Virus record (IMG/VR): IMGVR_UViG_3300035698_026482
Location: 1-64,000 of that record
Strand: one strand, 5' to 3'
Length of the DNA: 64,000 nucleotides
Source of the DNA: a virus
Both the position numbers and the translations under genes were made by a program. The first letter of the stretch is position 1, and each line of letters starts with the position of its first letter. Of this stretch, positions 1 to 61,499 are shown in pieces. The notes beneath the pieces are model-generated. The model saw nothing but the letters and a program-made list of their open reading frames with translations. It was not told the origin of the DNA and ran no database searches.

Positions 1-773
1 CCAACCGTGATAGAACCAGTCTGGCTTACACCGGCGGCGCCTTCATCGGTCCATAGACCGCCTCCACCTCCGCCAGATCCAGTTACGGCGTGAATTGTGA
101 CAGCACCGTTTGAGGCGCTGGTGATGCGTACATTGTCGCCAGCGACGAAAGCGGATGTGCCATCCACCAGGCGCGTATGTGAGCCAGAGAAGCCTAATGA
201 GGCAGATATAAAGCCATCGATGCCAGCGTCGCCGCCAACCGTGATAGATCCCGTTTGACTGACACCGGCGGCGCCTTCATCGGTCCACAAATTTGCATCG
301 CCAGTGTCGACAAAGACGCCAGTTACGGCATGGATTGTGACAGCGCCATTACTGGCGCTGGTGATACGCACATTGTCGCCCGCGACAAACGCAGACGTAC
401 CATCAATGAGGCGTGTAAGTGAACCAGAAAAGCCGAGCGAGGCAGATACAAAGCCGGCGATGCCCGCATCGCCACCGATCGTGATAGAACCCGTTTGACT
501 GACGCCTTGTGTGCCCTCATCAGTCCACAAGCTAGCATCGCCAGGATCAGTGCCTGTGACAGCATGAAATGTCACAGCCCCATTACTTTCGCTGGTAATG
601 CGTATATTATCGCCAGCAACGAATGCAGATGTGCCGTCGGCTAGGCGCGTGTGTGAACCGCTAAATCCAAGGCTTGCAGTGACTACACCTGAAATGTGAA
701 CAGACGCATCTGTTCCTACGACAGTGAATGCCTTGAAACCGAAGTCACTGTTATATTTGATGATAATCGCCAC
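1..773 (-). CDS. Repetitive virion protein, probably tail fibre-like (3' end cut by window edge)
   Basis: The frame is open from a GTG at 773 to the window edge, so the C-terminal part is missing. It encodes about three and a fraction copies of a roughly 80-residue repeat (about 240 bp). Each copy contains ASLGFSGS, then RL(A/I/V)DGTSAFVAGDN, then SNGAVT followed by HAVTG, then LWTDEG, then SQTGSIT and GGDAGI. One linker between repeats is a run of glycines. Such beta-rich tandem repeats are typical of phage fibre or virion decoration proteins, but the exact role is inferred. The GTG start was chosen because an AGGGTGG Shine-Dalgarno-like stretch precedes it and because the frame is closed by TAG just upstream. 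A competing ATG near 800 opens a different frame that stops after 20 codons. It lies just downstream of the last gene of array 3. Confidence 0.7.
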   Translation of the reverse strand, partial: MAIIIKYNSDFGFKAFTVVGTDASVHISGVVTASLGFSGSHTRLADGTSAFVAGDNIRITSESNGAVTFHAVTGTDPGDASLWTDEGTQGVSQTGSITIGGDAGIAGFVSASLGFSGSLTRLIDGTSAFVAGDNVRITSASNGAVTIHAVTGVFVDTGDANLWTDEGAAGVSQTGSITVGGDAGIDGFISASLGFSGSHTRLVDGTSAFVAGDNVRITSASNGAVTIHAVTGSGGGGGGLWTDEGAAGVSQTGSITV

Positions 774-7247: not shown

Positions 7248-8007
7248 TTTCAGTTAGCTCCTTCACAGACTTTGTAGTGCCATCAGATAGATTCACCACT
7301 GAATTACCTAACAGGTTGAATGTTTGTTCGCCTAGTTTAATTTCAAACATGTCGCCTTCCTTTTTCCATTTGCGTCTAAGAATCAGGTCGATTGCACGAT
7401 CAATTACGCGTAATGTCTTAAGACCCAAAAGGTCGAATTTGATCCAACCAAATTTCTCAAGGTGCCTATAGTGCAGCCCCTCTGTCCAGGGAGTTTGAAT
7501 CTCGCCGCGAATTTTAATAACAGGCATTCTTGCTTGAATGTTCTCCGATACAATAACACCACCTGCATGACGACCGATCGCCTTATTTTGCTTGAACAGA
7601 ACCTTGATGTGTTCACCAACTTGCGGATACTTTTCGATATATTCTCGGAAGCCCTTTGAATGCGCCATGGCATCATCAAAGCGTAGCACGAAAACGTTCT
7701 TGTCATCGCCCTTCTTTTGCGTTGCCCGCATGACCTCACGCTCAACACCCTTGGTCGCTTGGTTCGTCTCGGAGAAATCAATGCCATAAAACTTTGAAAT
7801 ATCCTTTACCAGCGACTTCAGTTGTAGTGTATTATAGTTAGAAATCGGCACAACGTTTTCAGTGCCAAATTTATCACGAAGCAAGTGCTTTAATTTGTCA
7901 TTATCGGCAACATCGGAATTATGCGATGCTATTGACAACCCTTGTTTCAAAAAAGAATGACGAATCATATGAGTATTATACATCACGATAACTTCATTTG
8001 TCAACAT
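7204..8007 (-). CDS. dnaE: DNA polymerase III alpha, piece 2
   Basis: 267 residues as drawn. Up to residue 30 is an intein C-terminal segment (FLKQGLSIASHN), then Ser+1. The extein carries SDVADNDKLKHLL, then VVPISNYNTLQLKSLVKD, GRHAGGVIVSE and KFDLLGLKTLRVIDRA, all PolIII alpha motifs. The last 35 residues (NLLGNSVVNLSDGTTKSV and on) resemble intein block A with Asn where Cys1 would be, and are cut short by the stop inside HEG-C. A consensus sigma-70 promoter lies over the first codons, so the real start may be ATG 7968 (MIRHSFLKQG), leaving only 17 intein residues. Confidence 0.75.
   Translation of the reverse strand: MLTNEVIVMYNTHMIRHSFLKQGLSIASHNSDVADNDKLKHLLRDKFGTENVVPISNYNTLQLKSLVKDISKFYGIDFSETNQATKGVEREVMRATQKKGDDKNVFVLRFDDAMAHSKGFREYIEKYPQVGEHIKVLFKQNKAIGRHAGGVIVSENIQARMPVIKIRGEIQTPWTEGLHYRHLEKFGWIKFDLLGLKTLRVIDRAIDLILRRKWKKEGDMFEIKLGEQTFNLLGNSVVNLSDGTTKSVKELTENDDIVEVPGLWKEL
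7918..8007 (-). other. Short split intein C-segment, dnaE site PDID/SDVADN
   Basis: At most 30 residues ending ASHN, then Ser+1. It holds only block G; block F is in the N-half at 9573-10019. If the promoter-proximal ATG is used it is 17 residues. Confidence 0.65.
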
Positions 8008-9576
8008 TGCGATTATAGCTCGGCGTCAGCACGAGGATTTGCGCAACATAATAAGAAAAAGCATAATATCGAAAGTGAATCATTGTTTTGCAATGTATAT
8101 GAAACACACGCCCAATTACACAAATGCGCCGGATGCAATGCCCAATCGAAATTTGTCGGTTTTACGCATGGATACGAGCAGATTTGTGGGAAGTGCAAAA
8201 GAAAAAAAGCTTTCGAAAAATTGACGCCGTGGAACAAGGGTTTAACAAAATCAACTAGTGGAAAGGTTAAAAAAGCTGCGGCGTCAATGCGTAAGCATTA
8301 CGATAAAAATAAGCACTGGTCGAAGGGTCTAAAAAAAGAAACATCAAGCATTATTGCATCGCGAAGTCATGCTGTATCGAAATCATTAAAAAAATATTAT
8401 GATGAGAACGAACATTGGTCAACGGGACTAACAAAACATACGCATACAGGGATTGCAAAGAGAAGCATTACAAACGCCGCCGTGCAAAAAGGGAAAAAGT
8501 TTTCCAAAGCGCATAAGCTTAAGCTTTCTAATGCGAAAATACTAAGCGAAAAAATTGTCGACTATCGGTTGCATGAGCATGGATTCAATCGATTAGCAGC
8601 GTATGAACATTCGCAAAAGAAGTTGCTTGTCGAGTGCATCAAATGCGAAACGCAATTTGAAAAAACATACGGCAACATTATAAACAGCGGTGGACGATGC
8701 ACAATATGTGACCCAGCATATCAAAACCAATCGTCGAAATGGCAAACAGAAATCTACGATTTCATTATTTCACAGTTCTCGGGTGATGTTATTTTAAACG
8801 ATCGTACATTATTGGGCGGTTATGAATTGGACATTTTTATCCCTTCGCTTAATTTCGCCATTGAATGTCATGGAATATATTGGCATAGCGAAGCAGCGGG
8901 AAGGTTTGATAAAAACTATCATCAAATGAAGTATCAACTTGCTCGTGAACATGGCGTTGAATTATTTCAAATTTATGAGGACGAATGGACTCAAAAAAGT
9001 GAACTTATTAAGGCGATGATTCTGCATCGACTAGGTCATAGCACGCATGTATATGCAAGAAAGCTTAATTTGCAAATCGATACGCCAAACAAAAAAGACG
9101 TTGATGATTTTATTAACAGCAATCATCTAGATGGCTCAACACGATGTCGTCATAGAATTGTACTCAGTGATGCTAATGATGAAATCTTCGGGGCCTTGAC
9201 GTTACGAAAAATCAGCTGGGGCAAATTTAAGGGTGAATTTGAAATTGCGCGCATGTGTTTCAAGCGCGGAACCAAGGTCATTGGCGGAAGCGCGCGCTTG
9301 ATCGCACACGCCAAACATCTACTTCCTGGGGACAAACTTATAACGTATGCTGATAATCGCCTTGGCGGACGGCATCATTGCTATAAAAGTAATGGCTTCG
9401 TATATTCACATTCGACGACGCCTCGATGGTGGTGGACAAATCTTACTGATCGGATGGATCGATTTCATGTTCGTGCAGATAAGGCACGTGGGCTATCAGA
9501 AAATGAAAACGCCGCATTACACGGCGTTGTCAGGATTTATGGATGTAGCAACGAATGTTACATTTATAATCCTTAG
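7957..9576 (+). CDS. Homing endonuclease HEG-D (EDxHD / Vsr-like), antisense to dnaE
   Basis: About 539 residues. N-terminal zinc finger (CQHCDYS...H) and a second CAGC..CGKC pair, then repeated NKGLTK / SKGLKKET / STGLTKHT motifs. A Vsr-like nuclease follows (ELDIFIPSLNFAIECHGIYWH, then LFQIYEDEW), then the C-terminal domain shared with HEG-C (RWWWTNLTDRMDRF, ADKARGLSENENAALHGVVRIYG). It is one of two plus-strand genes in the window. It fills the gap between dnaE pieces 1 and 2: its stop overlaps the end of piece 1 and its start overlaps the 5' end of piece 2. Possible starts are ATG 7957 or 7969. Confidence 0.8.
   Translation: MTNHMSIIHHDNFICQHCDYSSASARGFAQHNKKKHNIESESLFCNVYETHAQLHKCAGCNAQSKFVGFTHGYEQICGKCKRKKAFEKLTPWNKGLTKSTSGKVKKAAASMRKHYDKNKHWSKGLKKETSSIIASRSHAVSKSLKKYYDENEHWSTGLTKHTHTGIAKRSITNAAVQKGKKFSKAHKLKLSNAKILSEKIVDYRLHEHGFNRLAAYEHSQKKLLVECIKCETQFEKTYGNIINSGGRCTICDPAYQNQSSKWQTEIYDFIISQFSGDVILNDRTLLGGYELDIFIPSLNFAIECHGIYWHSEAAGRFDKNYHQMKYQLAREHGVELFQIYEDEWTQKSELIKAMILHRLGHSTHVYARKLNLQIDTPNKKDVDDFINSNHLDGSTRCRHRIVLSDANDEIFGALTLRKISWGKFKGEFEIARMCFKRGTKVIGGSARLIAHAKHLLPGDKLITYADNRLGGRHHCYKSNGFVYSHSTTPRWWWTNLTDRMDRFHVRADKARGLSENENAALHGVVRIYGCSNECYIYNP
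7976..8004 (-). promoter_or_regulatory. Consensus sigma-70 promoter before dnaE piece 2
   Basis: On the minus strand TTGACA (8004-7999) and TATAAT (7980-7975) are separated by exactly 18 bases. It lies inside the short gap between the two split-intein halves, overlapping the 5' end of the antisense HEG-D. It would let dnaE pieces 2-4 and their endonucleases be transcribed separately from piece 1. Confidence 0.7.
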
Positions 9577-10019
9577 TTTTTCATATACCCAAGCGTATGT
9601 TCAATCGTGTTTGAATCATCGTATTCAATTACATCGAATGGTACAACGTTGAATGTATGTGATCCCTCAACTGAGATGTCGACAAATTCTGTTTCTGTAT
9701 CTAGTGTGTCGACGGACACAACTCTTGCATTACCCTGCATTGATTTTAAATCAATGCCTGCTGCCAGATCTTTCGCAAAAACAACATTATTATCGATATC
9801 TAAAAAACGATGCTTTTCAACGCAAGCAATGCCTCCAAGACATCCATTAAGCTCAATTGTAATCAGTAGCGGCACATCGGTTTTATTTTCCCTAAGCTGA
9901 ACATGCGTAACGCATCTGGGAGTACCATCGGCGTCAAGCACCTCATCACCCTTACCAATGTCACCGATCGGGCTGTATGACCCGTCAGCCATCACAACCA
10001 TATGGTTACTTGCAATACA
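9573..10019 (-). other. Long split intein N-segment, dnaE site PDID/SDVADN
   Basis: 148 residues with Cys1 (CIASNHMVVMADGS), a block B-like CVEKHRFL and a block F-like VDISVEGSHTFNVV, then 22 residues and a stop. Block G is encoded separately at 7918-8007. Confidence 0.75.
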
Positions 10020-11894
10020 ATCAATATCGGGATATGACGAACGTGCCAGAGAGATAAACCTAGCGAACAACAAATTGTACTTAATAGGATCTACATGTGT
10101 GATGTATAACACGTAACACAATAGTGATCCTGCCGCGGAATTATGAACTGCTTTTCCTTCAATGTTATAAGTGTGTGAAGGCTCAACACATAAGTCAATA
10201 ACCTTGCCTTGATAAGGCCTAATTGTTCTTTTTATTAGTTTGCTATCATCGTGTTTGGCGACGCCAACAACATCATCTAAATCTGTTAGATTTTGTGCCT
10301 CGACCCATCCTCGATTTGACGTTAAAAATTCATGATCAAGTGTACACGTAATTGTTTTACCATCATCGAATTCAAGATCAATTACATCCTCATTGATATC
10401 ATAAGTAAAAACATCAGTGACTTGTCCGATATTGTCATATGCATCAATGACGTCTTCGCCTATTGTAATTGTATCAAGGCGTTTAGGTCCATCAGACGTA
10501 AGCACATTTGATTCAGGAACAAAACACCCTCTACCGGGGCCCACCAGCATATTTTCGTTGGCAAGCTCCATGATTGACTTCATTGTCAAAAAGTAGAGCG
10601 AGAAGTTCTTTTGCTTAATAACCTCAAGTTCTTCCTCTATGCGAGCAACATATTCCGGCTTATCTGCCAGTCCGCGTTTGGTCAGTCCCTCATACGCTGC
10701 GCTTGTAAGTGCTTCATGTTCGCCTTGACCCTTTGGAACAACATACGATGGAAGCTTCACAGAGACGTTTGGACTCGTGTCACCAATCATATCATGGGCA
10801 ATATCATAAGTGCGCTCGATTGCATCAGCAACCAGCTGATCGTCGTAAAAGCTAAGCGACATCTTAGCATTGCGCCCCCTAAGCATGCGCTTTCCGTCCT
10901 TATACGCACCCCACATCTGCTCTGCATTTTTTGGATATAGCTCGCACTCAAGCTCGTCGATAGACTGGGGCAATGCTCCAGGTTCAAATTTATCTTTGCT
11001 TACCCATCCCAGCTTTTTATACATCTCACGATCCTTCCACAGATGTGGTCCAGGATAATGCGAGTCTGCAGTTGCAATGAGCGGCAATTGCGTTCTTTTG
11101 GCTAACTCAATCAAGTGCATGTTGACGAGGTGTTGCGGGCCTAACTTATTGAACTGTAGCTCAAGAAAGAAGTTCTCGCGACCGACTGCGTGCACAATAC
11201 TATCAGTCGTATTCGCCAGATCACGCTGGATTGCTTCAAATGTCTTTTGATCACCTACGCCAGGAACCATTTGATCCCATGTCAAATGCTGGTGGTGTCG
11301 CATTACGTCGTAACTTAGCGGACCTGCCAAACATGCAGAATTTACCACCAGACCCTCTGAGTGTAACTTTAGCAGCTTATAGTCAATTCTTGGGAATCTG
11401 TAGAACCCGTCGCTGTAGCTTTTTGAGACCAATGCGAAAAGATTTTCTAATCCCTTTTGTGACTTGGCAACAACAACAAGATGATGACGACGTCGAACAG
11501 GATCATACCACTTCGTCTGTTTTGATTCTTCCTCATTTTCGATAACGCTGCCGGCATCGTCGTCTGATACCTCTACGAGTCCTCGCTTGTTTTTTGCTTT
11601 TCGTTCGCGGGAAGCGTCATATTCGATTTTCCACTGCGTCAAGTCAGGATGAACATAAAACTCTACTCCTGGTATGAATTTAAACGCGCGGCCGAGCTTA
11701 TCCAATTCCCATTGATGGGATTGCGCATGTGAATATGAATTCATATGGCCGTGATCAGTTATGGCCATTGCGTTCATGCCATTTTCTAAAGCAAAATCAA
11801 AATGCTCTTTGGGATATCCAAGGCCATCATAGGTGCTAAAACCGGAATGTCCATGAAGTCCGACAAATCGTTTTGGCGGTCTTACAATGGACAC
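9573..11894 (-). CDS. dnaE: DNA polymerase III alpha, piece 1 (PHP domain, mini-intein, split-intein N-half)
   Basis: 773 residues. It starts with a PHP domain (LHGHSGFSTYDG, AITDHGHM), then the polymerase palm approach with GPGRG at 452-456. Residues 457-585 are a contiguous mini-intein, then SAAGSLLCYVLYITHVDPI and SYPDID. Cys626 begins a second intein N-segment that includes block F and runs to the stop. GTG start at 11894 with a strong AGAAGGAGG about eight bases upstream. The role is a replicative DNA polymerase that needs trans-splicing to join pieces 1 and 2. It is transcribed after array 1 and the HTH gene. Confidence 0.85.
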   Translation of the reverse strand: MSIVRPPKRFVGLHGHSGFSTYDGLGYPKEHFDFALENGMNAMAITDHGHMNSYSHAQSHQWELDKLGRAFKFIPGVEFYVHPDLTQWKIEYDASRERKAKNKRGLVEVSDDDAGSVIENEEESKQTKWYDPVRRRHHLVVVAKSQKGLENLFALVSKSYSDGFYRFPRIDYKLLKLHSEGLVVNSACLAGPLSYDVMRHHQHLTWDQMVPGVGDQKTFEAIQRDLANTTDSIVHAVGRENFFLELQFNKLGPQHLVNMHLIELAKRTQLPLIATADSHYPGPHLWKDREMYKKLGWVSKDKFEPGALPQSIDELECELYPKNAEQMWGAYKDGKRMLRGRNAKMSLSFYDDQLVADAIERTYDIAHDMIGDTSPNVSVKLPSYVVPKGQGEHEALTSAAYEGLTKRGLADKPEYVARIEEELEVIKQKNFSLYFLTMKSIMELANENMLVGPGRGCFVPESNVLTSDGPKRLDTITIGEDVIDAYDNIGQVTDVFTYDINEDVIDLEFDDGKTITCTLDHEFLTSNRGWVEAQNLTDLDDVVGVAKHDDSKLIKRTIRPYQGKVIDLCVEPSHTYNIEGKAVHNSAAGSLLCYVLYITHVDPIKYNLLFARFISLARSSYPDIDCIASNHMVVMADGSYSPIGDIGKGDEVLDADGTPRCVTHVQLRENKTDVPLLITIELNGCLGGIACVEKHRFLDIDNNVVFAKDLAAGIDLKSMQGNARVVSVDTLDTETEFVDISVEGSHTFNVVPFDVIEYDDSNTIEHTLGYMKN
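10140..10526 (-). other. Contiguous mini-intein, dnaE site GPGRG/SAAGS
   Basis: 129 residues with Cys1, block B (CTLDHEFLTS), block F (VIDLCVEPSHTYNIEG), terminal VHN and Ser+1. No endonuclease domain. Position matches a known dnaE insertion point in the catalytic palm. Confidence 0.9.
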
Positions 11895-11930: not shown

Positions 11931-12227
11931 TTAGTTCAATTTGCCTTGTTGAAATGCATTAACCCACGCGTAAATTGTCGGGGCATGGCAGCCAAATTCT
12001 TTTGCTAGCGTCGTTGCCGATTCACCAGCGAGTTTTCGTGTAGCCGCAACGACTTTCATATCATTCGTAAATTTTCGTTTTTGTTTAGACCTAGGAACAA
12101 GATCTGCGACCCACTTATGAACTACGGTCGGATTAACGTTTAAAATTTCGCCAACCTTATATGTGCTGTGATGCAGCTCATATAATATTCTCGCTGCTTT
12201 TTTGGTTCGGGCAGTATGACGCCTCAT
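11931..12227 (-). CDS. Double helix-turn-helix protein (IS3 OrfA/transposase-like)
   Basis: 98 residues with two HTH units: about residues 10-42 (ARILYELHHSTYKVGEIL then NPTVVHKWVADL) and about 53-95 (FTNDMKVVAATRKLAGES then LAKEFGCHAPTIYAWVNAF). The second fits the OrfA-type transposase HTH pattern. No catalytic partner is nearby. Its ATG overlaps the stop of the last array 1 gene (ATGA), so it is the terminal cistron of array 1 and could be a DNA-binding regulator of it. The exact family is uncertain. Confidence 0.7.
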   Translation of the reverse strand: MRRHTARTKKAARILYELHHSTYKVGEILNVNPTVVHKWVADLVPRSKQKRKFTNDMKVVAATRKLAGESATTLAKEFGCHAPTIYAWVNAFQQGKLN

Positions 12228-12409
12228 AATGTCTTATTATACATCACCCTTCGTGAGGAGAACACGCTTTTATTGCGAATCCTTTTTTTGTCTCCGTAAA
12301 GATCACGAGTCCAGCGACGCCAAGACCGGGCAAATTCATATGTCCACGCGGAAGAAAACCCGTACAGCCTGTGCTCTTGCAAAAAATTGTCTGCGGGCAG
12401 GATCCTCAT
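12224..12409 (-). CDS. Array 1 FSSR-tail small protein A1-17
   Basis: 61 residues starting MRILPADNFLQEH. The tag is VFSSRRV, followed by MYNKTL. It overlaps the upstream stop (ATGA at 12406-12409) and the HTH gene downstream. An internal GFSSAWTYEF echoes the array 3 form of the tag. Function unknown. Confidence 0.7.
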   Translation of the reverse strand: MRILPADNFLQEHRLYGFSSAWTYEFARSWRRWTRDLYGDKKRIRNKSVFSSRRVMYNKTL

Positions 12410-12601
12410 CTGCTTATCCTACGTGAGGAGAACACATGGCTTGTACCCTCGTGGGTTGGATCACCGTAATAATCATTCGTCTTCCAGGCCCATACAAGTT
12501 GACGATCGGGGGGGGAGGTAGCCTCGACGGTGGTTTACTGCCCTGCTGCTATCAATATAAAGGATAAGGTCGCCTAGGAACCATTTCATTGCACGTGTCA
12601 T
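12406..12601 (-). CDS. Array 1 FSSR-tail protein A1-16, frame interrupted at a C8 tract
   Basis: The ATG at 12601 (MTRAMKWFLGDLILYID) opens a frame that ends at 12473 without the tag. In the frame one base away, after eight consecutive C (G on the plus strand, 12508-12515), the sequence continues as DRQLVWAWKTNDYYGD and ends HVFSSRRISR with a stop at 12406 that is coupled to A1-17. With seven C the gene would be intact. Either slippage or phase variation, a recent mutation, or an assembly error. Confidence 0.6.
12508..12515. repeat. Homopolymer of eight G (C8 on the coding strand)
   Basis: The tract lies inside A1-16 exactly where its reading frame must change to reach the FSSR tag. Confidence 0.85.
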
Positions 12602-12762
12602 GCGCTCACCTTTCGTGAAGACCATTGATTGACTTGATGGGCCGGGGTCGAGCCCATTGTTTTCATCGTCGTGCTCATCCAATAACGTTGCGCTTGATTA
12701 CCCATATAGTTTAAGAGATACATGTCATCACATCGCCATGGCAATTTTTCAACAACCCACAT
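12598..12762 (-). CDS. Array 1 FSSR-tail small protein A1-15
   Basis: 54 residues starting MWVVEKLPWRCDDMYLLNYM and ending NQWSSRKVSA, with Trp in place of the motif Phe. Clear paralogue of A1-13 (shared DDMYLL, MGN, QRYWM, KTMGSTPAH). Its start overlaps the upstream TAA (TAATG), with AAGGTG from the preceding tag as ribosome site. Function unknown. Confidence 0.75.
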   Translation of the reverse strand: MWVVEKLPWRCDDMYLLNYMGNQAQRYWMSTTMKTMGSTPAHQVNQWSSRKVSA

Positions 12763-12968
12763 TAGCTGCTCACCTTGCGTGATGAGAACATCATGCTGGC
12801 GTAGCTGCAGATCCATGAATAGGGTGAACAAAATGACTCACGCGACCAACCAAGATCCTCTGGGGACGAGCTCGGCTCATCATTTTTTGTGCACCAAGTA
12901 TATGCTTGCGGCTTGAAAAAATCGTCACGAAGCAACTGATCGTATCCGTTCAGCCAAGTTGTTTTCAT
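12762..12968 (-). CDS. Array 1 FSSR-tail small protein A1-14
   Basis: 68 residues starting MKTTWLNGYDQLLRDDFF and ending MMFSSRKVSS. The codons TTC TCA TCA CGC AAG GTG encode FSSRKV and at the same time give the AAGGTG ribosome site for A1-15. Overlaps both neighbours by one to four bases. Function unknown. Confidence 0.75.
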   Translation of the reverse strand: MKTTWLNGYDQLLRDDFFKPQAYTWCTKNDEPSSSPEDLGWSRESFCSPYSWICSYASMMFSSRKVSS

Positions 12969-13129
12969 ACATTTACCTTGCGTGAAGACCATTGATAGGC
13001 CCGATGGGCCGGGGTCGAGCCCATTGTTTTCAGCACGTTGCTCATCCAATAACGTTGTATTTCATTGCCCATATTACGCAAAAGATACATGTCATCAGGT
13101 CGCCTCGGAAATCCCACAACGGCCCACAT
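12965..13129 (-). CDS. Array 1 FSSR-tail small protein A1-13
   Basis: 54 residues starting MWAVVGFPRRPDDMYLLRNM and ending YQWSSRKVNV. Paralogue of A1-15; RPDDMY is also found in A2-13 of the second array, linking the arrays. TAATG start overlap with A1-12. Function unknown. Confidence 0.75.
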   Translation of the reverse strand: MWAVVGFPRRPDDMYLLRNMGNEIQRYWMSNVLKTMGSTPAHRAYQWSSRKVNV

Positions 13130-13416
13130 TAGTTGGCCACCTTCCGCGATGAGAATATTGAAATACAAAAGGCGCCGCCCGGCATGCCTCTATCAACGCA
13201 ATAAGGCATGCCGCCGCCGGCGTGTTTGGATGAGGCTGTTTCATATTTTGATGCCTTGCATGTATATCTTAAATTCGTGATTATGTAAGAACCGCCCATG
13301 CGATTCTCATGATACTGGAAATATGAATCGTCTACTGCAATGCATGCATATAGATCAGGCCAATGAACATACGGCCAATGTTTTATTTGCCTTGGCGCTG
13401 GATTTACGACCTTCAT
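13129..13416 (-). CDS. Array 1 FSSR-tail small protein A1-12
   Basis: 95 residues, the longest of the array, starting MKVVNPAPRQIKHWPYVHWP and ending SIFSSRKVAN. The WPY...D segment resembles A1-11. ATG overlaps the A1-11 stop. Function unknown. Confidence 0.75.
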   Translation of the reverse strand: MKVVNPAPRQIKHWPYVHWPDLYACIAVDDSYFQYHENRMGGSYIITNLRYTCKASKYETASSKHAGGGMPYCVDRGMPGGAFCISIFSSRKVAN

Positions 13417-13637
13417 CTATTCACCCTGCGGCTTGAAAATATAAGCGCCTCTATATGCCCATCATGTAGTGGCGCCGTGTATGTGCATTTATCGTTAAAC
13501 TGCCATCCGCATTGCTTTGCAGTCTGTGTTTTATTATCGAAGTCCCATATACACGCTTGCTGACTTGACAGATGAATTGGTATGTCTAGTGAATAGGGCC
13601 ACCCGCGCAAGAGAATATCACCCGATAACAGTTTCAT
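13413..13637 (-). CDS. Array 1 FSSR-tail small protein A1-11
   Basis: 74 residues starting MKLLSGDILLRGWPYSLD and ending LIFSSRRVNR. The motif uses TTT TCA AGC CGC AGG GTG, i.e. an AGC serine instead of TCN. Shows the N-terminal GD-hydrophobic signature of the family. ATGA coupling to A1-10. Function unknown. Confidence 0.75.
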   Translation of the reverse strand: MKLLSGDILLRGWPYSLDIPIHLSSQQACIWDFDNKTQTAKQCGWQFNDKCTYTAPLHDGHIEALIFSSRRVNR

Positions 13638-13837
13638 GTGCTCACCTTCCTGGACGAGAAGATAAGATATTTGTGATACTGTAATCTGTACGCTGCTGCT
13701 TTCGTCGAAGCCGCTTTTGCCTGGGTGGGACTCATTTTTCCTACATCAATATAGTATGCGCGGCGACGGCGGCGGCTGTATATCCACTTGTCATATTGCC
13801 ATTTTTCAATTAGCGCATCCTGAATTTTGTATTTCAT
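13634..13837 (-). CDS. Array 1 FSSR-tail small protein A1-10
   Basis: 67 residues starting MKYKIQDALIEKWQYDKW, with an SRRRRR run and an Ala-rich helix-like segment, ending LIFSSRKVST. Motif codons TTC TCG TCC AGG AAG GTG. Start chosen by overlap with the A1-9 stop; a longer frame upstream overlaps A1-9. Function unknown. Confidence 0.75.
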   Translation of the reverse strand: MKYKIQDALIEKWQYDKWIYSRRRRRAYYIDVGKMSPTQAKAASTKAAAYRLQYHKYLIFSSRKVST

Positions 13838-13931
13838 ACATTCACCTTTCGTGAGGAGAAAATGATCATACGTCCATATGGATGGTAATTCGTTGCATCT
13901 AACGACCACGGCGGCAAAATATGATACATTT
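13833..13931. repeat. Copy 1 of a ~98-bp duplication in array 1
   Basis: Nearly identical to 13976-14074. Covers the 3' half of A1-9 including the FSSR tag. Confidence 0.85.
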
Positions 13932-13980
13932 TATCTGTACTTGTTGGCCAGAATTGATGATCTCCCGCGAGCATATTCAT
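13834..13980 (-). CDS. Array 1 FSSR-tail small protein A1-9 (48 aa)
   Basis: 48 residues starting MNMLAGDHQFWPTSTDK and ending MIIFSSRKVNV. The C-terminal two thirds (MYHIL.P.SLDATNYHPYGR onward) is nearly identical to A1-8, from a recent tandem duplication. The AAAGGTG of the tag sits just before the next ATG. Function unknown. Confidence 0.7.
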   Translation of the reverse strand: MNMLAGDHQFWPTSTDKMYHILPPWSLDATNYHPYGRMIIFSSRKVNV

Positions 13981-14074
13981 ACATTCACCTTTCGTGAGGA
14001 GAAAATGATCATACGTCCATATGGATGGTAATTCGTTGCATCTAACGAGCCCGGCGTCAAAATATGATACATTT
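13976..14074. repeat. Copy 2 of a ~98-bp duplication in array 1
   Basis: Nearly identical to 13833-13931. Covers the 3' half of A1-8. Offset between copies is 143 bp. Confidence 0.85.
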
Positions 14075-14117
14075 CAAACATTTTCAATACCATGTGATCG
14101 TCTAGCTTGAGTTTCAT
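13977..14117 (-). CDS. Array 1 FSSR-tail small protein A1-8 (46 aa)
   Basis: 46 residues starting MKLKLDDHMVLKMFEMYHIL and ending MIIFSSRKVNV. Same C-terminal segment as A1-9 with a different N-terminus, showing that N-terminal parts can be exchanged. ATGA overlap with the A1-7 stop. Function unknown. Confidence 0.7.
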   Translation of the reverse strand: MKLKLDDHMVLKMFEMYHILTPGSLDATNYHPYGRMIIFSSRKVNV

Positions 14118-14335
14118 ATTGTCACCTTGCGTGAAGAAAATGCCCAGGCAATAGTTTCCCCTGCGAAGTCGTTATCATGATTAAGATACGTGGTCTCGTA
14201 AGCAACATGTTCCTCGCCGCGCGAAAGCTTATAGCCTATGCGACGACCGTGCTGCCCGGTCTGACCGTGCATGACAACTGCCTCTACGCGGATTGAATTA
14301 AAAACAACAGCTAAGTCATCGTGATATGCAATCAT
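14114..14335 (-). CDS. Array 1 FSSR-tail small protein A1-7
   Basis: 73 residues starting MIAYHDDLAVVFNSIRVEA and ending WAFSSRKVTI. The MIAY.DD start is shared with A2-6 in array 2, so the two arrays hold orthologous or paralogous pairs. Starts within the A1-6 stop region. Function unknown. Confidence 0.75.
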   Translation of the reverse strand: MIAYHDDLAVVFNSIRVEAVVMHGQTGQHGRRIGYKLSRGEEHVAYETTYLNHDNDFAGETIAWAFSSRKVTI

Positions 14336-14550
14336 CGTGCTACACGCCTTGAAGAAAATGCAGTAATATGCTGATCAGTAACACCCCATCTAATCAGATT
14401 CTTAGTTATGACTAAAGGTAACGACGATGTTTTGGCGCCCGATTTAAATTCTGTAGGATGCTGCCCAAAAAATGCGATTTTTGAATCAGCAATATGAAGT
14501 CTTAAGAAGAAATCACCTTCATGCCAGCGAAATTTAATTTGAGGAACCAT
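14332..14550 (-). CDS. Array 1 FSSR-tail small protein A1-6
   Basis: 72 residues starting MVPQIKFRWHEGDFFLRLH and ending TAFSSRRVAR (TTT TCT TCA AGG CGT GTA). Shows the GD-F-F-L signature near the N-terminus. Overlaps the end of A1-5. Function unknown. Confidence 0.75.
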   Translation of the reverse strand: MVPQIKFRWHEGDFFLRLHIADSKIAFFGQHPTEFKSGAKTSSLPLVITKNLIRWGVTDQHITAFSSRRVAR

Positions 14551-14800
14551 TACCTAGCGATCTGCTTGAAAATACAAGCACTTCATCGATGCTCGGACAG
14601 CCGAATGTCGTGAAATCATTTTGCGGGGACCAAGTGCAATAATTGCACCAGCGCCAGCCGCGTGATTCGGGTGTCACGTAACGATCGCCCATATCAAGCC
14701 ATAATGACGCCGCGCCATACCAGCGTGATTCAAGCGCTTCGGGATTATCGTGTATGTTGCCCTGTATGAGCATGTCGTTGAGCATAATTTTCATCTCCAT
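14534..14800 (-). CDS. Array 1 FSSR-tail small protein A1-5
   Basis: 88 residues starting MEMKIMLNDMLIQGN and ending LVFSSRSLGNGSSN. Motif codons TTT TCA AGC AGA TCG CTA differ at most positions from the commonest form, yet the peptide is kept. Trp- and Cys-containing body (WRWCNYCTW). Function unknown. Confidence 0.75.
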   Translation of the reverse strand: MEMKIMLNDMLIQGNIHDNPEALESRWYGAASLWLDMGDRYVTPESRGWRWCNYCTWSPQNDFTTFGCPSIDEVLVFSSRSLGNGSSN

Positions 14801-14801
14801 A

Positions 14802-14957
14802 CTAAGCGCGCACCTTCCTTGAGGAAAATGTAATGTTGTTTTCTGAATACTTTGAGCCTATCCAGAAAATTGTCGCCATGTGATGTGTCGACGATCCAGG
14901 TGGCGCTGCCCAATGCGTTGGATGCTGTATATACGAATCCTTGTGATTAACGAGCAC
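14802..14957 (-). CDS. Array 1 FSSR-tail small protein A1-4
   Basis: 51 residues from a GTG at 14957 (VLVNHKDSYIQHPTHW), ending ITFSSRKVRA. GTG was chosen because GAGGAG, which encodes RR of the A1-3 tag, lies five bases upstream. An ATG at 14996 would lengthen it by 13 residues inside A1-3. Function unknown. Confidence 0.65.
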   Translation of the reverse strand: MLVNHKDSYIQHPTHWAAPPGSSTHHMATIFWIGSKYSENNITFSSRKVRA

Positions 14958-15180
14958 GTAATCTCCTCGAGCTAAATGCGAAATTGAAATCGTCAAGGCT
15001 TAAGCAACATCTCCATTCGGCAGTCGCACATTGACTCCAGCCATTGCTTACAGGTGTACTTGGCGTCAACCATTGACAAGGTGTTGCTTCCACGTCGGTC
15101 CATTTATTTGGATAATAATGTAGATTATACATTAGAATATTATCTCCCAAGGCAATAAACGAGACATATCGGCGCTTCAT
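14947..15180 (-). CDS. Array 1 FSSR-tail small protein A1-3
   Basis: 77 residues starting MKRRYVSFIALGDNILMYN and ending FAFSSRRLRAR. Motif codons TTT AGC TCG AGG AGA TTA, fully different from the array majority. Its ATG overlaps the A1-2 stop (ATGA). GD-N-I-L signature near the N-terminus. Function unknown. Confidence 0.75.
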   Translation of the reverse strand: MKRRYVSFIALGDNILMYNLHYYPNKWTDVEATPCQWLTPSTPVSNGWSQCATAEWRCCLSLDDFNFAFSSRRLRAR

Positions 15181-15317
15181 CGTGCCACCGACCTCGATGA
15201 AAATTGCCAACAAACATATTCGCTAAAATAAAAAAGCTCTTTGTCATCGTATTTGTGTCCGTATACGATTATGCCTCGAGAAGGACGATTCAAGGCGTCA
15301 AGATGATCACCTCGCAT
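15177..15317 (-). CDS. Array 1 FSSR-tail small protein A1-2 (46 aa)
   Basis: A short frame starting MRGDHLDALNRPSRG and ending WQFSSRSVAR (TTT TCA TCG AGG TCG GTG). It is supported by the tag, by the ATGA overlap with A1-3 and by the R-G-D start typical of the family. A GTG at 15341 could lengthen it by eight residues. Function unknown. Confidence 0.65.
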   Translation of the reverse strand: MRGDHLDALNRPSRGIIVYGHKYDDKELFYFSEYVCWQFSSRSVAR

Positions 15318-15344
15318 ACTTGTGGTGTAACATCGTTTCACATC

Positions 15345-15385
15345 ATCAGTCGCTATCGCATGATCAGTCGCCTATCGCATGATCA
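15345..15385. repeat. Short tandem direct repeat (18-19 bp, two copies)
   Basis: Two copies of atcagtcgc(c)tatcgcatg between A1-1 and A1-2, possibly a protein-binding site or slippage product. Confidence 0.7.
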
Positions 15386-15398
15386 TTTTGATATACAA

Positions 15399-15590
15399 TC
15401 ATCCTGTGATTTTCCGTGAGCTAAAAATAATAGAATCACCAATAAAAGCATTGGTATAATGCCGCATGGGGGTGTAGTAAATCGCTACGATCTCGCCGGT
15501 ACGATGAAAACACATATCAACGGTATCATCAGCGTTAACGCGCCGCATAGCAACGTTAACATCAATTGCAGCGCGCCATAACATGTTCAT
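15399..15590 (-). CDS. Array 1 FSSR-tail small protein A1-1 (first of array)
   Basis: 63 residues starting MNMLWRAAIDVNVAMRR and ending IIFSSRKITG (TTT AGC TCA CGG AAA ATC). It is the first gene of array 1, 40 bp after the nucleotidyltransferase stop. A TATGAT about ten bases before ATG may be a -10 element. Function unknown. Confidence 0.7.
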   Translation of the reverse strand: MNMLWRAAIDVNVAMRRVNADDTVDMCFHRTGEIVAIYYTPMRHYTNAFIGDSIIFSSRKITG

Positions 15591-15629: not shown

Positions 15630-16829
15630 TTATTGATTAAGCCAGAGACCTGCGTTTTTTAACGCATTAATCGTTGTGGGTTCTTTTGTGTAAACCGTGT
15701 CTAAGTCAGCAACACCATACCCGGGACACCCCGAATCGCGCGGTTGGTGATCTTCTGTTTCGTCAGCACCGATTTTGGAAACATCTGCGCGCTTATCAGA
15801 ATAGTGTTTCCATACTGCTTTTGCTTGACCTGAGATTATTTCGCGGTCAGGCATCAAGCCATCGCCCTGTAATGTTGCCCATTCCATCGCCACGTCATAA
15901 ATGAATGGTCCCCATCCCTTAACCGCTGACGCCTCAGCGACGACCCACGCGTCACATTCCTTTGACCACCATATTTTGATCTCGGCAATAGAAGTATCAT
16001 CATTACCTAGCACGAATTCTATGCTTGATGGACGTTTATTGGTCGAGTCGGTCCACCATGTAACATAGAAGCCTTGCTCGATATCATTTATGCTGCGTGC
16101 AGCTTCCACTAGCTCTCGTGCGGGAGATTCGAGTGTAAGCTCTTTTTCTTTTTTGGCATGCGCCGCATCGTACAGCTTCTTAATATACCCATTACGCCGA
16201 AGGGCTTTAAAGGCCAGATTCTCAACAGAAAATTCGCCCGCTGAGTCTAGACCTGCTTGTCGCATTTTCTTGACCTTTTGTTTGGCCACATCAAAGCATG
16301 TATCGCTACAGTCGGGATCATCGAGTGCATAGTCAATCATATTCATCAATGACTCTGCTTTATCATTGATTGATTTTTCATCAATCGTGTGTAATTTACG
16401 TTCAGGACGTATAAGCCATTTATCACGTGAGACATCGTACACACCTGTTGAATGGTGTGGTTCGCTTACGTCTTGGGCGTAAAGTTCGACCTCATATCCC
16501 TTGGCGGTTACTTCAAATTGATCATTCCAGATTGTCTTTTTTGCATTCATCAAATTTCGTACAAGCTCAACGTTGTTTGATACTGCTGCGAAATCTAACA
16601 AAATATGAAGATCAATATCGCTATATTCGCTCCAGTTAAAATTCGCCAATGAACCAGTAAAAATAACACCCACGATTGGGATATCAATTTCTAGGAAGTC
16701 GACAAATTCCTGCGCGATATCAAGCAACGTTGCTCGAACTACCGGATCCAAGCGCATGCCTCGCCAAACGTCAGGACTTAGTTCATCTTTAATTTTGAAG
16801 CTGTCTAAATCAACTGCGCGTGACATCAT
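15630..16829 (-). CDS. DNA polymerase beta-like nucleotidyltransferase
   Basis: 399 residues. The N-terminal domain has the nucleotidyltransferase signature GS (59-60) followed by DID (71-73) within FTGSLANFNW and SEYSDIDLHIL, i.e. the G-S...D-x-D metal site. A helical region follows, then a C-terminal domain with GYGVADLD near the end. Members of this superfamily transfer nucleotides to proteins, RNA or small molecules; the substrate here cannot be told. It lies between array 1 and the small gene at 16841. Start could also be ATG 16826. Confidence 0.7.
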   Translation of the reverse strand: MMSRAVDLDSFKIKDELSPDVWRGMRLDPVVRATLLDIAQEFVDFLEIDIPIVGVIFTGSLANFNWSEYSDIDLHILLDFAAVSNNVELVRNLMNAKKTIWNDQFEVTAKGYEVELYAQDVSEPHHSTGVYDVSRDKWLIRPERKLHTIDEKSINDKAESLMNMIDYALDDPDCSDTCFDVAKQKVKKMRQAGLDSAGEFSVENLAFKALRRNGYIKKLYDAAHAKKEKELTLESPARELVEAARSINDIEQGFYVTWWTDSTNKRPSSIEFVLGNDDTSIAEIKIWWSKECDAWVVAEASAVKGWGPFIYDVAMEWATLQGDGLMPDREIISGQAKAVWKHYSDKRADVSKIGADETEDHQPRDSGCPGYGVADLDTVYTKEPTTINALKNAGLWLNQ

Positions 16830-17228: not shown

Positions 17229-17363
17229 CTATACTAGACGACGTGAGCTAAAACAAAAAACTTCCGGCGAATATCTAATATGCACATCAGAAAATAAACC
17301 GCCAGCTTGCCAATAGCTACAGTTACCACGGTTAATCAGATAATCGTACTTAGTAATCCTCAT
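17229..17363 (-). CDS. Orphan FSSR-tail small protein (44 aa)
   Basis: A 44-residue frame starting MRITKYDYLINRGNCSYW and ending FCFSSRRLV (TTT AGC TCA CGT CGT CTA). It overlaps the last codons of the NTP pyrophosphatase gene and is the only gene in the 130-bp gap before 17212. It is a single family member outside the arrays. Function unknown. Confidence 0.65.
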   Translation of the reverse strand: MRITKYDYLINRGNCSYWQAGGLFSDVHIRYSPEVFCFSSRRLV

Positions 17364-21344: not shown

Positions 21345-21656
21345 TTATTTTATAACAACGTCACCTGACACAAGGTCGCCTGCGGTAATCCACACCTGTC
21401 TTTCATCAACAAAGCATGCAATAGGCTCATTCGGCGTGCACTTCAATTCTACGCCGTTAGAAAACTTAATCGATACAACTTCCTTGACGCCGTTATCATA
21501 TGTTTGATCTGGTTTAACAAAATCGCCTGACATTGTTTCTACTTTGGCTGTCCCGTTATAAGCCTGGAAGCCCTGCTGATGATTTTCAACATCAACAATT
21601 TCATCATAATACAGCAAGCCTTGATCAGTTGAAATCAGCGTATCTTTTGGAATACA
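21345..21656 (-). other. Split intein N-half, nrdJ site AISN/TTNLP
   Basis: 103 residues from Cys1 (CIPKDTLISTDQG). The block B equivalent reads CTPNEPIA, with Glu where the usual TxxH histidine stands. Confidence 0.8.
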
Positions 21657-24600
21657 ATTGCTGATCGCATGATCGACCCACTTTTGTGCAACTGACTGTA
21701 ATTTCACTTTTTGACGCCAGTCGATTTCCTGTGAAGTAGCGCCCCAATATGGACTCCCTTCTACACCGTCGTCTGATACGTGATCATTGGCCCATTTTTC
21801 AATATCGCCTTCGCTCCAGTTGTTTGCGTGCATCCATTTGATCACGCCTGGATGAATGACATTGAAATGTTGCCAGGTGTCGCCTGAATCATCAATGGAA
21901 TCAACGCGAACACCAGCATCCTCTGGATTGACTTTCTTTTTTCTAAGATACTTTAGGAAAATCGTTGGCTCGATGCCTGACGTTGTTTGACACAAAATTG
22001 ATACTGATCCACAGGGTGCGGTCGTCGTGTTCGCAATATTTCGCCGACCAAATTTATCCCATTTTGCCTGAACTGGTGCAGGCAATGCATCATATATCCG
22101 ATTAAGAAAAGGATGTTCAGTTTCAAGCGCGCGATCGCACACTGGGAACGCGCCACGTTCCTCAGCCATCGTAATGGACGATGTATAACTTGCAAGGGCA
22201 AGATTCTTGTATAGCTTTTCAACTAGCTTAATCGAATCATCAGAGCCATAAGTTAGATTCACCATCGCGATAGTGTCGCCAACGGCTGTTACGCCAAGAC
22301 CAGTCCGACGACCGTTTTCTGCCTGTAATCGAATCTTATTCCATAACTCAAGTTCTATGCGCTTAACATTATCAGGCTCAGGATCTGCTTTAATTTTTCC
22401 AAGAATTCCATCAATTTTTTCAAGCTCTAGCTCGACGAGATCGTCCATAAGGCGCTGGGCCTTCTGGGCGACTTCATTATATTTCTTCCATTGAAACTTT
22501 GCGTTCGGAGTGAATGCGTCTTTTACAAATGATGCTAGATTAATCACCATCAATCTACAAGAATCATTTGGGCTAAGAATAATCTCGCCGCAATTCCGCG
22601 AATTTATTAATGATATCATAGGCTTACCAAAATCGCTAAGTGATTCTGCGCCTATTATATAGAAGTTGTGAAAATCATCAACAGTCCCGTTGTAAACATC
22701 TTCAATACCATCATCTTCAATTGATATAATTCGGTGATTATGCGTTACTGCTGAAGTCTTGAGCTCGTCCCAGGAATTGAATCCAAATTTTGTACTTTTG
22801 CCTAGACGTCTAGCAATTTTTCGTTCCTTACATAGTGCGCCCCATTCTTTAAGCCGCGGTTCACGATCAAGTGAATGCTTAAGCTCGGTGTATACTTCAA
22901 GTTGTTGAAGCTTCTTACCTTCGGCTTTTGATTCCCACACACGATGAATACCTTCGATACGCTTTTCGTGAATCTTCTTATCGCTATTCACGTATTTCAA
23001 TGAACATGCATGTGAACAAAATCCGGTTTCACGATTATTAACATCTGCTTGAAATTGTGATTCGCAACATTCACATGTTTTTTCAACAAGGATATCTTTA
23101 CCATTAATTGTAAGCGGCAAATCGGTTTGCGTACGCCAAAATTCCATTCGAATGAGTGGGTCTTTTGAAGTTGATGCAACATTTCTACCAGTAACACCTG
23201 CGTGGCGTGCAGCATTAAAAAGAAAATGCGACATATCGGCACCTAGACTTTGTTTTCTAAAATCAACAAAGTACCGAGGCCACGATCGTCGTTGCGCTTC
23301 TGCGATATATTCATTTACTTGCGGAATATAATTTAACTCTTTTATCCACGATGACACCGCATCAAATAATTCATCATTTGTTATATCACAGCCATTGCCA
23401 TTCATTATGCCAGAGCTTGCCTCCGACAACTTTGTTTTATACGCTGCACAGCGAACGGGATCGGCAAGAACCTTGTGAATCGGGTTCTTTGCACCGAGCA
23501 TATCACGACGATGCAGATCATCATGATCAGCTTTTGTCATACATCGTAGATTATCGATAGCATTATTTTTTCCACTATAATCAATATGATGAATCACATT
23601 GCGCTTTGGAATTTCGCCATTAAAATGTTCGTATATAAGACGATGCTCGCTTTTTCCACGTCCTACTCTGTTCCATGAGCGCAGCCACCAATAGTCTTGT
23701 GCATTTTTACCTTTATTTTTGGTTATTTTCGCCTGGTGTTTAATTGCGACATGCATGCTGTCGCCAACTCGCAAGCTTGAAACTTCTTCATATTCGCCTC
23801 TTGCAGTGAGAAATTTGTGATTTTTGGTTGCGCGGAGTATGGTACCGTCATCCAACGTAATCTTAACAATTTCTGCGGCGTGCTTTGTTAGTCTAGGACG
23901 ACGCATTGTTCTGATCGCAATTTTGCCATCGCTATCAACACAATAAACTGGAACATCTGATCCTTCGCTCGCAAGTTGCTTAATCGTTACGGCCGTTCTA
24001 CCGTCTGCAACGGCTACAAGCGTATCACCAGTAATACATGGATTAGTCGACGTCGAACCATAGCCCGAGTGACTATATACGTCAGCCGGCGTCATCCTTG
24101 TACATGTATCCCAAAACAACACGCCCGGCTCGGCTGCTGCGTGCGCATGCTTAATGATGTCGTCCCAAAGGTCTTTTGCGCTGGTCCACTCTTCAACTTC
24201 TGGATTTTCTGTTTCGTCAACAGGCCAACGAAGCTGGACTTGTTCATCATTGCGAACAGCGTTCATGAACTCATCTGACATACGAATCGAAACATTCGCA
24301 CCAGTCACCTTATCACGATGCGCATATCCGCATTTCTGGCATTTCGTCTTTTGGTCTTTGATCCCAATAAACGTGCGAATCTGAGGATGATGGCAGGAAA
24401 CAGTGAGCATCAATGCTCCTCTGCGACCGCCCTGCGCTACTTCCCGACAAGAATTGCTAAAGCGCTCCATAAACACGCCGATCCCGTCTGTCGTTTGTGC
24501 CGAGTTCGCAGTTGGCAATCCACGAGGTCTAATATGAGAAATATCAAATCCTACGCCGCCTCGACGTTTCATAATTTGAACCTGCTCCTGATCAGTGAGC

Positions 24601-24947
24601 ATAATACCACCGTATGAATCATGGGGCGATTCAATGACAAAACAATTCGAAAGCGATTGATGCTTGAATTTATTGCCAATACCAGACATTGGACTACCTT
24701 GCGGGATTACATACTTGAATCCGTCTAGTAACTCAAAGATCTCCTGTTCACTCATCGGGTTTTTGAACTTTGCTTCAGCTCGCGCAAATTCACCCGCAAG
24801 ACGTCGATGCATTCCCTCTGGCGTTAACTCCAGATATCCGAAGCTATCGTCATGCAATGCGTATTTTGAGGCCCAGACATCAGCAGCCATATCGTCGCCG
24901 TCAAAGTAAGTTAACGATGCTTTGTATGCGTCATTTTTAGAATGCAT
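21345..24947 (-). CDS. nrdJ: Class II ribonucleotide reductase, N-terminal piece with HNH intein and split-intein N-half
   Basis: 1200 residues. Extein parts: 1-303 (LSNCFVIESPHDSYGGI, RRGGVGFDIS, GSTSTNP), 786-1097 (CGEIILSPNDSCRLMVIN, NTTTAPCGSVSILCQ, HAISN). Residues 304-785 are a full intein with HNH endonuclease inserted directly before the radical cysteine of NPCGEI. Cys1098 starts a split-intein N-half that runs to the stop. After both splicing steps the extein would be a usual-sized NrdJ that reduces ribonucleotides using adenosylcobalamin. Followed by HEG-E and piece 2. Confidence 0.9.
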   Translation of the reverse strand: MHSKNDAYKASLTYFDGDDMAADVWASKYALHDDSFGYLELTPEGMHRRLAGEFARAEAKFKNPMSEQEIFELLDGFKYVIPQGSPMSGIGNKFKHQSLSNCFVIESPHDSYGGIMLTDQEQVQIMKRRGGVGFDISHIRPRGLPTANSAQTTDGIGVFMERFSNSCREVAQGGRRGALMLTVSCHHPQIRTFIGIKDQKTKCQKCGYAHRDKVTGANVSIRMSDEFMNAVRNDEQVQLRWPVDETENPEVEEWTSAKDLWDDIIKHAHAAAEPGVLFWDTCTRMTPADVYSHSGYGSTSTNPCITGDTLVAVADGRTAVTIKQLASEGSDVPVYCVDSDGKIAIRTMRRPRLTKHAAEIVKITLDDGTILRATKNHKFLTARGEYEEVSSLRVGDSMHVAIKHQAKITKNKGKNAQDYWWLRSWNRVGRGKSEHRLIYEHFNGEIPKRNVIHHIDYSGKNNAIDNLRCMTKADHDDLHRRDMLGAKNPIHKVLADPVRCAAYKTKLSEASSGIMNGNGCDITNDELFDAVSSWIKELNYIPQVNEYIAEAQRRSWPRYFVDFRKQSLGADMSHFLFNAARHAGVTGRNVASTSKDPLIRMEFWRTQTDLPLTINGKDILVEKTCECCESQFQADVNNRETGFCSHACSLKYVNSDKKIHEKRIEGIHRVWESKAEGKKLQQLEVYTELKHSLDREPRLKEWGALCKERKIARRLGKSTKFGFNSWDELKTSAVTHNHRIISIEDDGIEDVYNGTVDDFHNFYIIGAESLSDFGKPMISLINSRNCGEIILSPNDSCRLMVINLASFVKDAFTPNAKFQWKKYNEVAQKAQRLMDDLVELELEKIDGILGKIKADPEPDNVKRIELELWNKIRLQAENGRRTGLGVTAVGDTIAMVNLTYGSDDSIKLVEKLYKNLALASYTSSITMAEERGAFPVCDRALETEHPFLNRIYDALPAPVQAKWDKFGRRNIANTTTAPCGSVSILCQTTSGIEPTIFLKYLRKKKVNPEDAGVRVDSIDDSGDTWQHFNVIHPGVIKWMHANNWSEGDIEKWANDHVSDDGVEGSPYWGATSQEIDWRQKVKLQSVAQKWVDHAISNCIPKDTLISTDQGLLYYDEIVDVENHQQGFQAYNGTAKVETMSGDFVKPDQTYDNGVKEVVSIKFSNGVELKCTPNEPIACFVDERQVWITAGDLVSGDVVIK
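22593..24038 (-). other. Full-length HNH intein in nrdJ at TNP/CGEI
   Basis: 482 residues. Block A CITGDTLVAVADG, block B RATKNHKFLTARG, HNH core (HRLIYEHFNGEIPKRNVIHH then DNLRCMTKADHDDLHRR), a CxxC pair, block F VYNGTVDDFHNFYI. It ends SLINSRN, with Arg instead of the usual penultimate His, then Cys+1, which is the reductase radical cysteine. Confidence 0.85.
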
Positions 24948-48678: not shown

Positions 48679-48925
48679 TCTTCTTTTCTTCCAATGCAAA
48701 ATGGGCCGCTGCAGACTTGCAATTACTAAACGCCATAAAAATGCGGCGTCGGGCCAATTTCAAATCATATTTCGTGTCGTCAGACGATTCACCAATAGCG
48801 TCGAGCTCTTGATTTGCACGAATTAGATGCTTGCACGCCTCTAAAAGGCGTATCCTCGGATCCACTTTTTTTGGCTCTTTGCGGCCAAAAATTAGATCCC
48901 AAAGTCTCGGTAAGGTTTTCCCAAT
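48662..48925 (-). CDS. Small protein, possible AUU start (or shorter GTG form)
   Basis: The coding frame continues upstream of a GTG at 48865 (VDPRIRLLEACKHLIRANQ). In it a strong GGAGGG lies seven bases before an ATT at 48925, giving GKTLPRLWDLIFGRKEPKK before the GTG residue. No ATG exists in frame. Either an AUU start or the GTG form is real. C-terminal half is helical. Confidence 0.5.
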   Translation of the reverse strand: MGKTLPRLWDLIFGRKEPKKVDPRIRLLEACKHLIRANQELDAIGESSDDTKYDLKLARRRIFMAFSNCKSAAAHFALEEKKNDKVD

Positions 48926-51077: not shown

Positions 51078-51078
51078 G

Positions 51079-51541: not shown

Positions 51542-51544
51542 TTG

Positions 51545-53086: not shown

Positions 53087-53088
53087 TG

Positions 53089-54869: not shown

Positions 54870-54917
54870 CTTACATATTATACATATGTTAGATCAATAT
54901 GTTTGGTCCAGCCTGCA

Positions 54918-55743: not shown

Positions 55744-55816
55744 GATGCATATAACTATTAAATCACCGCAACTCTCAAAGTACAATTTGTTGCATAAGCT
55801 ATATATTATAGTTAGT

Positions 55817-57710: not shown

Positions 57711-57714
57711 TTTC

Positions 57715-61143: not shown

Positions 61144-61149
61144 TACAGT

Positions 61150-61488: not shown

Positions 61489-61499
61489 AATAATCCCTT

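Follow-up and report, generated by a model that had tools for sequence, protein, structure and literature searches.

A family of hypervariable phage mini-proteins, known so far from one lineage, whose C-terminal FSSR motif is kept as a peptide

The first 64,000 nucleotides (nt) of the IMG/VR virus record IMGVR_UViG_3300035698_026482 (hereafter the window) carry two tandem arrays of small genes whose products share the tetrapeptide FSSR close to the C-terminus. Comparison of these genes shows that an Asp residue near the start, a Tyr or Trp in mid-chain and the C-terminal FSSR[KR][VIL] are under purifying selection at the protein level, while the remainder of each protein has diverged almost beyond recognition. 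The family comprises about 33 small genes (44–95 amino acids, aa), namely the two arrays and three lone copies (positions 17229–17363 of the window, 92781–93071 and 151088–151306 of the record). The record (182,840 bases) encodes a large contractile-tail phage (myophage), with genes for the tail sheath, the tube, the baseplate hub, ribonucleotide reductase, a DnaB-like helicase and an intein-containing polymerase III alpha. Tiny genes with no assigned function abound in phages, and a single genome rarely reveals how such genes are made. Here, one genome holds related copies that have been duplicated and are on the way to diverging almost completely, with a few residues unchanged; the constant residues tell what the units share, and the remainder what differs between them.

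Array 1 (12224–15590, minus strand) is an uninterrupted run of 17 small open reading frames (ORFs) with tails FSSR or WSSR. Array 2 (50892–55151, minus strand) contains 12 motif-bearing ORFs, one of them with FISR, and is interrupted by two other genes, one for a homing endonuclease and one small and ordinary. At most unit junctions the start and stop codons overlap by 4 or 1 nt, a packing suited to coupled translation of successive units. By the codon usage of the genome, the proper frame scores best in 27 of 29 units, therefore the units are real genes. The surroundings of the arrays differ: array 1 lies among genes for replication and nucleotide metabolism rather than structural genes, and array 2 within the sheath-tube-hub cluster of tail structural genes, where tube and hub, usually about 0.2 kb apart in 128 related loci, are separated by 7.4 kb occupied by array 2 and other genes.

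A tail of the form [FW][SI]SR was found on 32 proteins of the record. These tails were gathered by a search for the motif, and the stronger statement is the share of consecutive array ORFs that carry it, i.e. every one of the 17 in array 1 and all but one of the 13 small ORFs in array 2; hence the conservation is not an artefact of searching for FSSR. Only the duplicate pair A1-13/A1-15 (WSSR) and A2-9 (FISR) deviate (units are numbered within each array). FSSR is also the commonest C-terminal tetrapeptide of the record: it was counted at the end of 29 of the 1,981 ORFs that span 40 aa or more from stop to stop, all on the minus strand and none on the plus strand, and the next independent tetrapeptide, the low-complexity SSSS, occurs in 10. 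The conservation extends beyond FSSR, with Lys or Arg at position 5 in 29 of 32 tails and Val, Ile or Leu at position 6 in 30 of 32. The motif lies 2–10 residues from the C-terminal end, and the residues that follow it vary in number and kind.

The sequence-only reading of this DNA had claimed that FSSR is conserved as a peptide and not only as DNA, quoting seven different codon strings. All seven are exact on the minus strand, with the first base of the Phe codon at 14003/13860, 13660, 13439, 14976 and 14572 in array 1 and at 51729 and 50912 in array 2; the interval given for the claim, 12224–15590, covers array 1 only, as array 2 lies outside it. The claim itself is borne out. Across the motif both Phe codons, all six Ser codons and all six Arg codons are used (Phe: 17 TTT and 13 TTC; first Ser: 24 TCN and 7 AGY; second Ser: 26 TCN and 6 AGY; Arg: 19 CGN and 13 AGR). 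Genome codon usage fits the counts for Phe (p = 0.34) and the first Ser (p = 0.18); Arg deviates slightly (p = 0.045), and at the second Ser TCA is in excess (p = 0.013). The 30 tails of the window have 26 distinct 12-nt encodings, which differ on average by 4.30 of 12 nt per pair, as compared with 4.61 expected for random synonymous encodings.

The constraint was tested among paralogs within this one genome. Third positions of the four motif codons agree in 36% of pairs, i.e. they are near saturation at synonymous positions, as against an amino-acid identity of 0.95; a neutral star simulation at the same divergence leaves an identity of only about 0.12–0.16. In the eight codons that precede the motif, amino-acid identity is 4–16% and the ratio of nonsynonymous to synonymous differences per site (pN/pS) is 0.73–0.94, while pN/pS is 0.06 for Phe and 0.10 for Arg of the motif. 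The two Ser positions yield pN/pS of 0.5–0.6 despite amino-acid identities of 94% and 100%, because Nei-Gojobori counting scores switches between TCN and AGY serines as nonsynonymous. The path between these codons passes through other amino acids, so the standard ratio of substitution rates (dN/dS) understates the constraint on the tail, and we dropped the plain per-codon dN/dS as a measure biased at serine. These results support purifying selection at the protein level as the force that holds the FSSR peptide.

FSSR is part of a wider signature. In an alignment of 31 members, mean column identity is 13%; the Asp, which stands soon after the start at a variable distance, and Phe, Ser, Ser and Arg of the tail are invariant or nearly so, and a Tyr or Trp recurs halfway along the chain. 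The body between Asp and FSSR is hypervariable and rich in aromatic residues: Tyr makes up 7.9% of it (2.9% in long proteins of the phage, 4.2% for random codons) and Trp 3.2% (1.2% and 1.5%, respectively). Low-confidence AlphaFold2 models of two members, one of them A2-4, are all-beta, and both place one strand right after the Asp and another through FSSR.

Our preferred interpretation, which we put forward tentatively and at slightly less than even probability, is that the family is a repertoire of small proteins, beta-sheet in fold, that combine a constant Asp/FSSR frame with a diversified, target-binding middle and are directed against host or defence proteins. Each unit would be one small beta-sheet domain, whose constant frame may consist of the strand following Asp and the final, FSSR-bearing strand; the Tyr/Trp-rich stretch that separates these two would be the diversified, putatively target-binding part. 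FSSR would then serve a common fold or a common partner rather than an individual target, and the phage could turn the set, as small effectors, on proteins of the host or of defence systems, with an arms race keeping the repertoire diverse. Several points weigh against this interpretation. The models are weak, with predicted local distance difference test (pLDDT) scores of 67 and 52 and predicted template modelling (pTM) scores of 0.45 and 0.26, and fold searches with the better one gave no match at E <= 0.001; the picture of a frame with a variable surface is therefore a guess from the pattern. The abundance of Tyr and Trp in the body could stem from another constraint, and the location of array 2 among tail structural genes would suit a role in the virion equally well. 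If the units are indeed directed against the host or its defences, they would constitute a ready-made library of binders.

The main alternative explanation, unlikely in our estimation, is that FSSR[KR][VIL] acts as a C-terminal address tag that brings differing small cargo proteins to one place (the phage head, the tail, a protease or a host compartment). The internal proteins of phage T4 are directed in a comparable way by an N-terminal capsid targeting sequence, and packaging of IPIII requires only the first 10 residues (PMC9026906). A constant tail on variable bodies, its position 2–10 residues from the end and the placement of array 2 in the sheath-tube-hub cluster agree with such a role. 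Further weight comes from the tube-hub site of two relatives (L181 and L195), which is the position of array 2 here: it holds another array of variable small proteins with a common N-terminal tag (MKITKRQLRRIIKEE...), and the phage itself carries N-tagged proteins nearby (57447–62278). A detachable tag has no need, however, for the conserved Asp on the N-terminal side or the mid-chain Tyr/Trp, which favour a fold; moreover, a beta strand is predicted for the tail, the residues beyond the motif differ in number and kind, and array 1 lies away from structural genes. The more specific proposal of a sorting signal that routes the mini-proteins to a single destination, e.g. into virions, to be injected into the next host, appears doubtful. 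We know of no such C-terminal sorting signal in any other phage, and if FSSR were an address tag, it would represent a new way of sorting phage cargo.

The N-tagged proteins of this phage number about eight (57447–62278 and 47980–48699, minus strand, between sheath and tube), and they share an amphipathic N-terminus (e.g. MRLTESQLRKMIREEL, MKLTETLIRKIIREEL) on unrelated bodies; this N-terminus resembles a capsid targeting tag. Among the relatives, L181 (10506–14525), L195 (3063–6140) and L214 possess arrays of 8–10 small proteins that begin with MKITKRQLRRIIKEE.

A variable Tyr/Trp-rich part next to a constant end could also be expected of precursor peptides, with the Tyr/Trp-rich part as modified core and the FSSR tail as recognition (follower) sequence. 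This is very improbable: no radical S-adenosylmethionine (SAM) enzyme was found in the record (the search did not extend to YcaO, LanB or P450 enzymes), and the conserved Asp and the predicted sheet suit a folded protein.

Array growth bears on the notion that the tails are alike merely as recent duplicates or through homogenisation by gene conversion. Adjacent units are more alike in DNA and share tail codons more often than in shuffled orders (p < 1e-4 in array 2, p = 0.047 in array 1), and two recent duplications are plainly visible (A1-8/A1-9 and A1-13/A1-15). We conclude from this that the arrays grow by local tandem duplication, after which the copies diverge except at the shared residues. 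As a sufficient cause of the common tail, though, duplication or conversion has next to no probability and is refuted for most pairs, in which the tail is nearly saturated at synonymous sites and the unit bodies are unrecognisable. No match to the reverse transcriptase (RVT_1) of a diversity-generating retroelement was found in the 182.8 kb record, which may be incomplete.

Equally implausible is preservation of the tail as nucleic acid, be it as a Shine-Dalgarno or hairpin element or as a site for recombination where genes meet. The Lys-Val codons of array 1 (AAG GTG A) do resemble a Shine-Dalgarno sequence for the start of the following unit, several junctions contain TCAC...GTGA, and the excess of TCA at the second Ser points the same way. 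A constraint on DNA or RNA is thus present, but it overlaps the motif only partly: array 2 spells the K/R and V/I/L residues with codons other than AAG GTG A, and FSSR is retained in lone and last units where no unit follows (L007, L010, and the units at 17229, 50892 and 54918), so the likeness to a Shine-Dalgarno sequence does not explain FSSR. With six of six codons in use for both Ser and Arg and 26 different 12-mers among 30 tails, the diversity of codons refutes most of this explanation. The idea that the tail arose from a Shine-Dalgarno hairpin was rejected, since too many units lack one. Likewise, no conserved DNA recombination site of the kind expected for integron-like cassettes was seen at the unit ends, which are kept as peptide with all synonymous codons.

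The family has no significant match in Pfam, PHROGs, NCBIfam or PDB sequences; NCBIfam and PDB returned nothing at all, and the best weak matches, each of a single member, were 0.0072 in Pfam (Portal_T4) and 0.015 in PHROGs (portal protein). Profiles were also run against 49 related records of viruses and phages, to which the sheath, tube, helicase and polymerase genes had led, and no credible member was found (as a positive control, the profile gave 29 matches in its own record), and the exact DNA pattern of the unit junction had no match in viral contigs. Matches of two units to phages in tblastn were discarded as noise, the best-looking one (Escherichia phage EC3a) being antisense to annotated genes. 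Nor was a relative found for the neighbouring gene 15630–16829 in viral contigs, or for the sheath in genome contigs. As far as the searched collections go, the family thus appears confined to this phage; genomes nearly identical to it may have escaped the searches, so this does not prove uniqueness. As a kind of system, clusters of small phage genes that evolve fast are already known; the FSSR layout is new, and the units form a new family, so far specific to this lineage, of mini-proteins that are hypervariable but have constant ends. Small phage ORFs that seem unrelated by ordinary searches can evidently belong to one family.

Known systems resemble the arrays in part. The internal proteins IPI, IPII and IPIII of T4, like the FSSR units, are small and have a short constant stretch at one end, and IPI inhibits a host restriction system (PMC9026906). 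They are few, and their tag is N-terminal and removed by proteolysis, whereas the units here number about 33 and have their motif at the C-terminus, within a predicted strand, together with a conserved Asp; a constant N-terminal targeting peptide of the T4 type was not found in the units, whose N-termini differ and share only the Asp at a variable distance. The host takeover module of phage SPO1 is also a cluster of small genes, with mostly unknown targets, and several of its products slow host growth when expressed (PMC6873191); by its description, it is not one hypervariable paralogous family with a common C-terminal motif. The N-tagged arrays of the related phages share with array 2 the tube-hub site and with the FSSR units generally the combination of variable small proteins and one constant end, but the tag is at the opposite end and helical-looking, and the bodies are unrelated. 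When the relatives were screened in general for further tetrapeptides shared at C-termini, only one family emerged, from a 322 kb relative (G001, L222–L231), with about 14 or more HREDGPA-repeat paralogs and the common C-terminus KSLNYILSNLKK. These are likewise many paralogs in one phage with a common C-terminus; unlike the FSSR family, they are full-length homologs made up of one repeat and have neither FSSR nor the Asp/FSSR layout.

All units described below are on the minus strand. Array 1 begins with A1-1 (15399–15590, 63 aa, tail FSSRKITG), followed by A1-2 (15177–15317, 46 aa, FSSRSVAR), whose start is uncertain and which has a direct repeat of 19 bases in 2.4 copies immediately upstream (15341–15385). 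Next are A1-3 (14947–15180, 77 aa, FSSRRLRAR, with FSSR encoded by TTT AGC TCG AGG), A1-4 (14802–14957, 51 aa, FSSRKVRA), with an uncertain GTG start, A1-5 (14534–14800, 88 aa, FSSRSLGNGSSN), A1-6 (14332–14550, 72 aa, FSSRRVAR) and A1-7 (14114–14335, 73 aa, FSSRKVTI). A1-8 (13977–14117, 46 aa, FSSRKVNV) is a recent tandem duplicate of the 3' part of A1-9 (13834–13980, 48 aa, FSSRKVNV). Then come A1-10 (13634–13837, 67 aa, FSSRKVST), A1-11 (13413–13637, 74 aa, FSSRRVNR), A1-12 (13129–13416, 95 aa, FSSRKVAN), A1-13 (12965–13129, 54 aa, WSSRKVNV), A1-14 (12762–12968, 68 aa, FSSRKVSS) and A1-15 (12598–12762, 54 aa, WSSRKVSA), the last a duplicate of A1-13 with a dN/dS of 0.41. A1-16 (12406–12601) is broken: its N-terminal half (MTRAMKWFLGD...) and its FSSR half are in different frames, with the change at a run of eight G (12508–12515), which may represent an assembly error, a pseudogene or phase variation. 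The last unit, A1-17 (12224–12409, 61 aa, FSSRRVMYNKTL), overlaps by ATGA the gene of a 98-aa helix-turn-helix protein (11931–12227, minus strand, HTH_23 8e-10), possibly a cotranscribed regulator of the array. The lone unit of the window, A3 (17229–17363), encodes 44 aa with the tail FSSRRLV.

In array 2, A2-0 (54918–55151, 77 aa, FSSRRLGIAKQ) stands directly after the tail tube gene and is separated from A2-1 (53089–53277, 62 aa, FSSRKANR) by the inserted homing endonuclease gene (53268–54869, minus strand, phrog_3339 2.7e-71), which is outside the FSSR family. Further units are A2-2 (52871–53086, 71 aa, FSSRKISTT), A2-3 (52680–52874, 64 aa, FSSRRVSNAGTRRT), A2-4 (52499–52702, 67 aa, FSSRKIITKAE), A2-5 (52272–52499, 75 aa, FSSRRVNR), A2-6 (52093–52275, 60 aa, FSSRRIYERE), A2-7 (51897–52106, 69 aa, FSSRKLAI), A2-8 (51709–51900, 63 aa, FSSRRT), A2-9 (51545–51709, 54 aa, FISRKI), in which one Ser is replaced, A2-10 (51079–51282, 67 aa, FSSRKI) and the last one, A2-11 (50892–51077, 61 aa, FSSRKL).

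The inserted homing endonuclease is related to two others in the window, at 7942–9576 and 55664–57442 (both on the plus strand), the latter between sheath and tube; the sheath-tube gap of some relatives is filled by genes of the size of homing endonuclease genes. Inteins are present in the genes of polymerase III alpha (9573–11894, minus strand) and ribonucleotide reductase (21345–24947, minus strand). A tandem repeat of 240 bases occupies the edge of the window (1–659).

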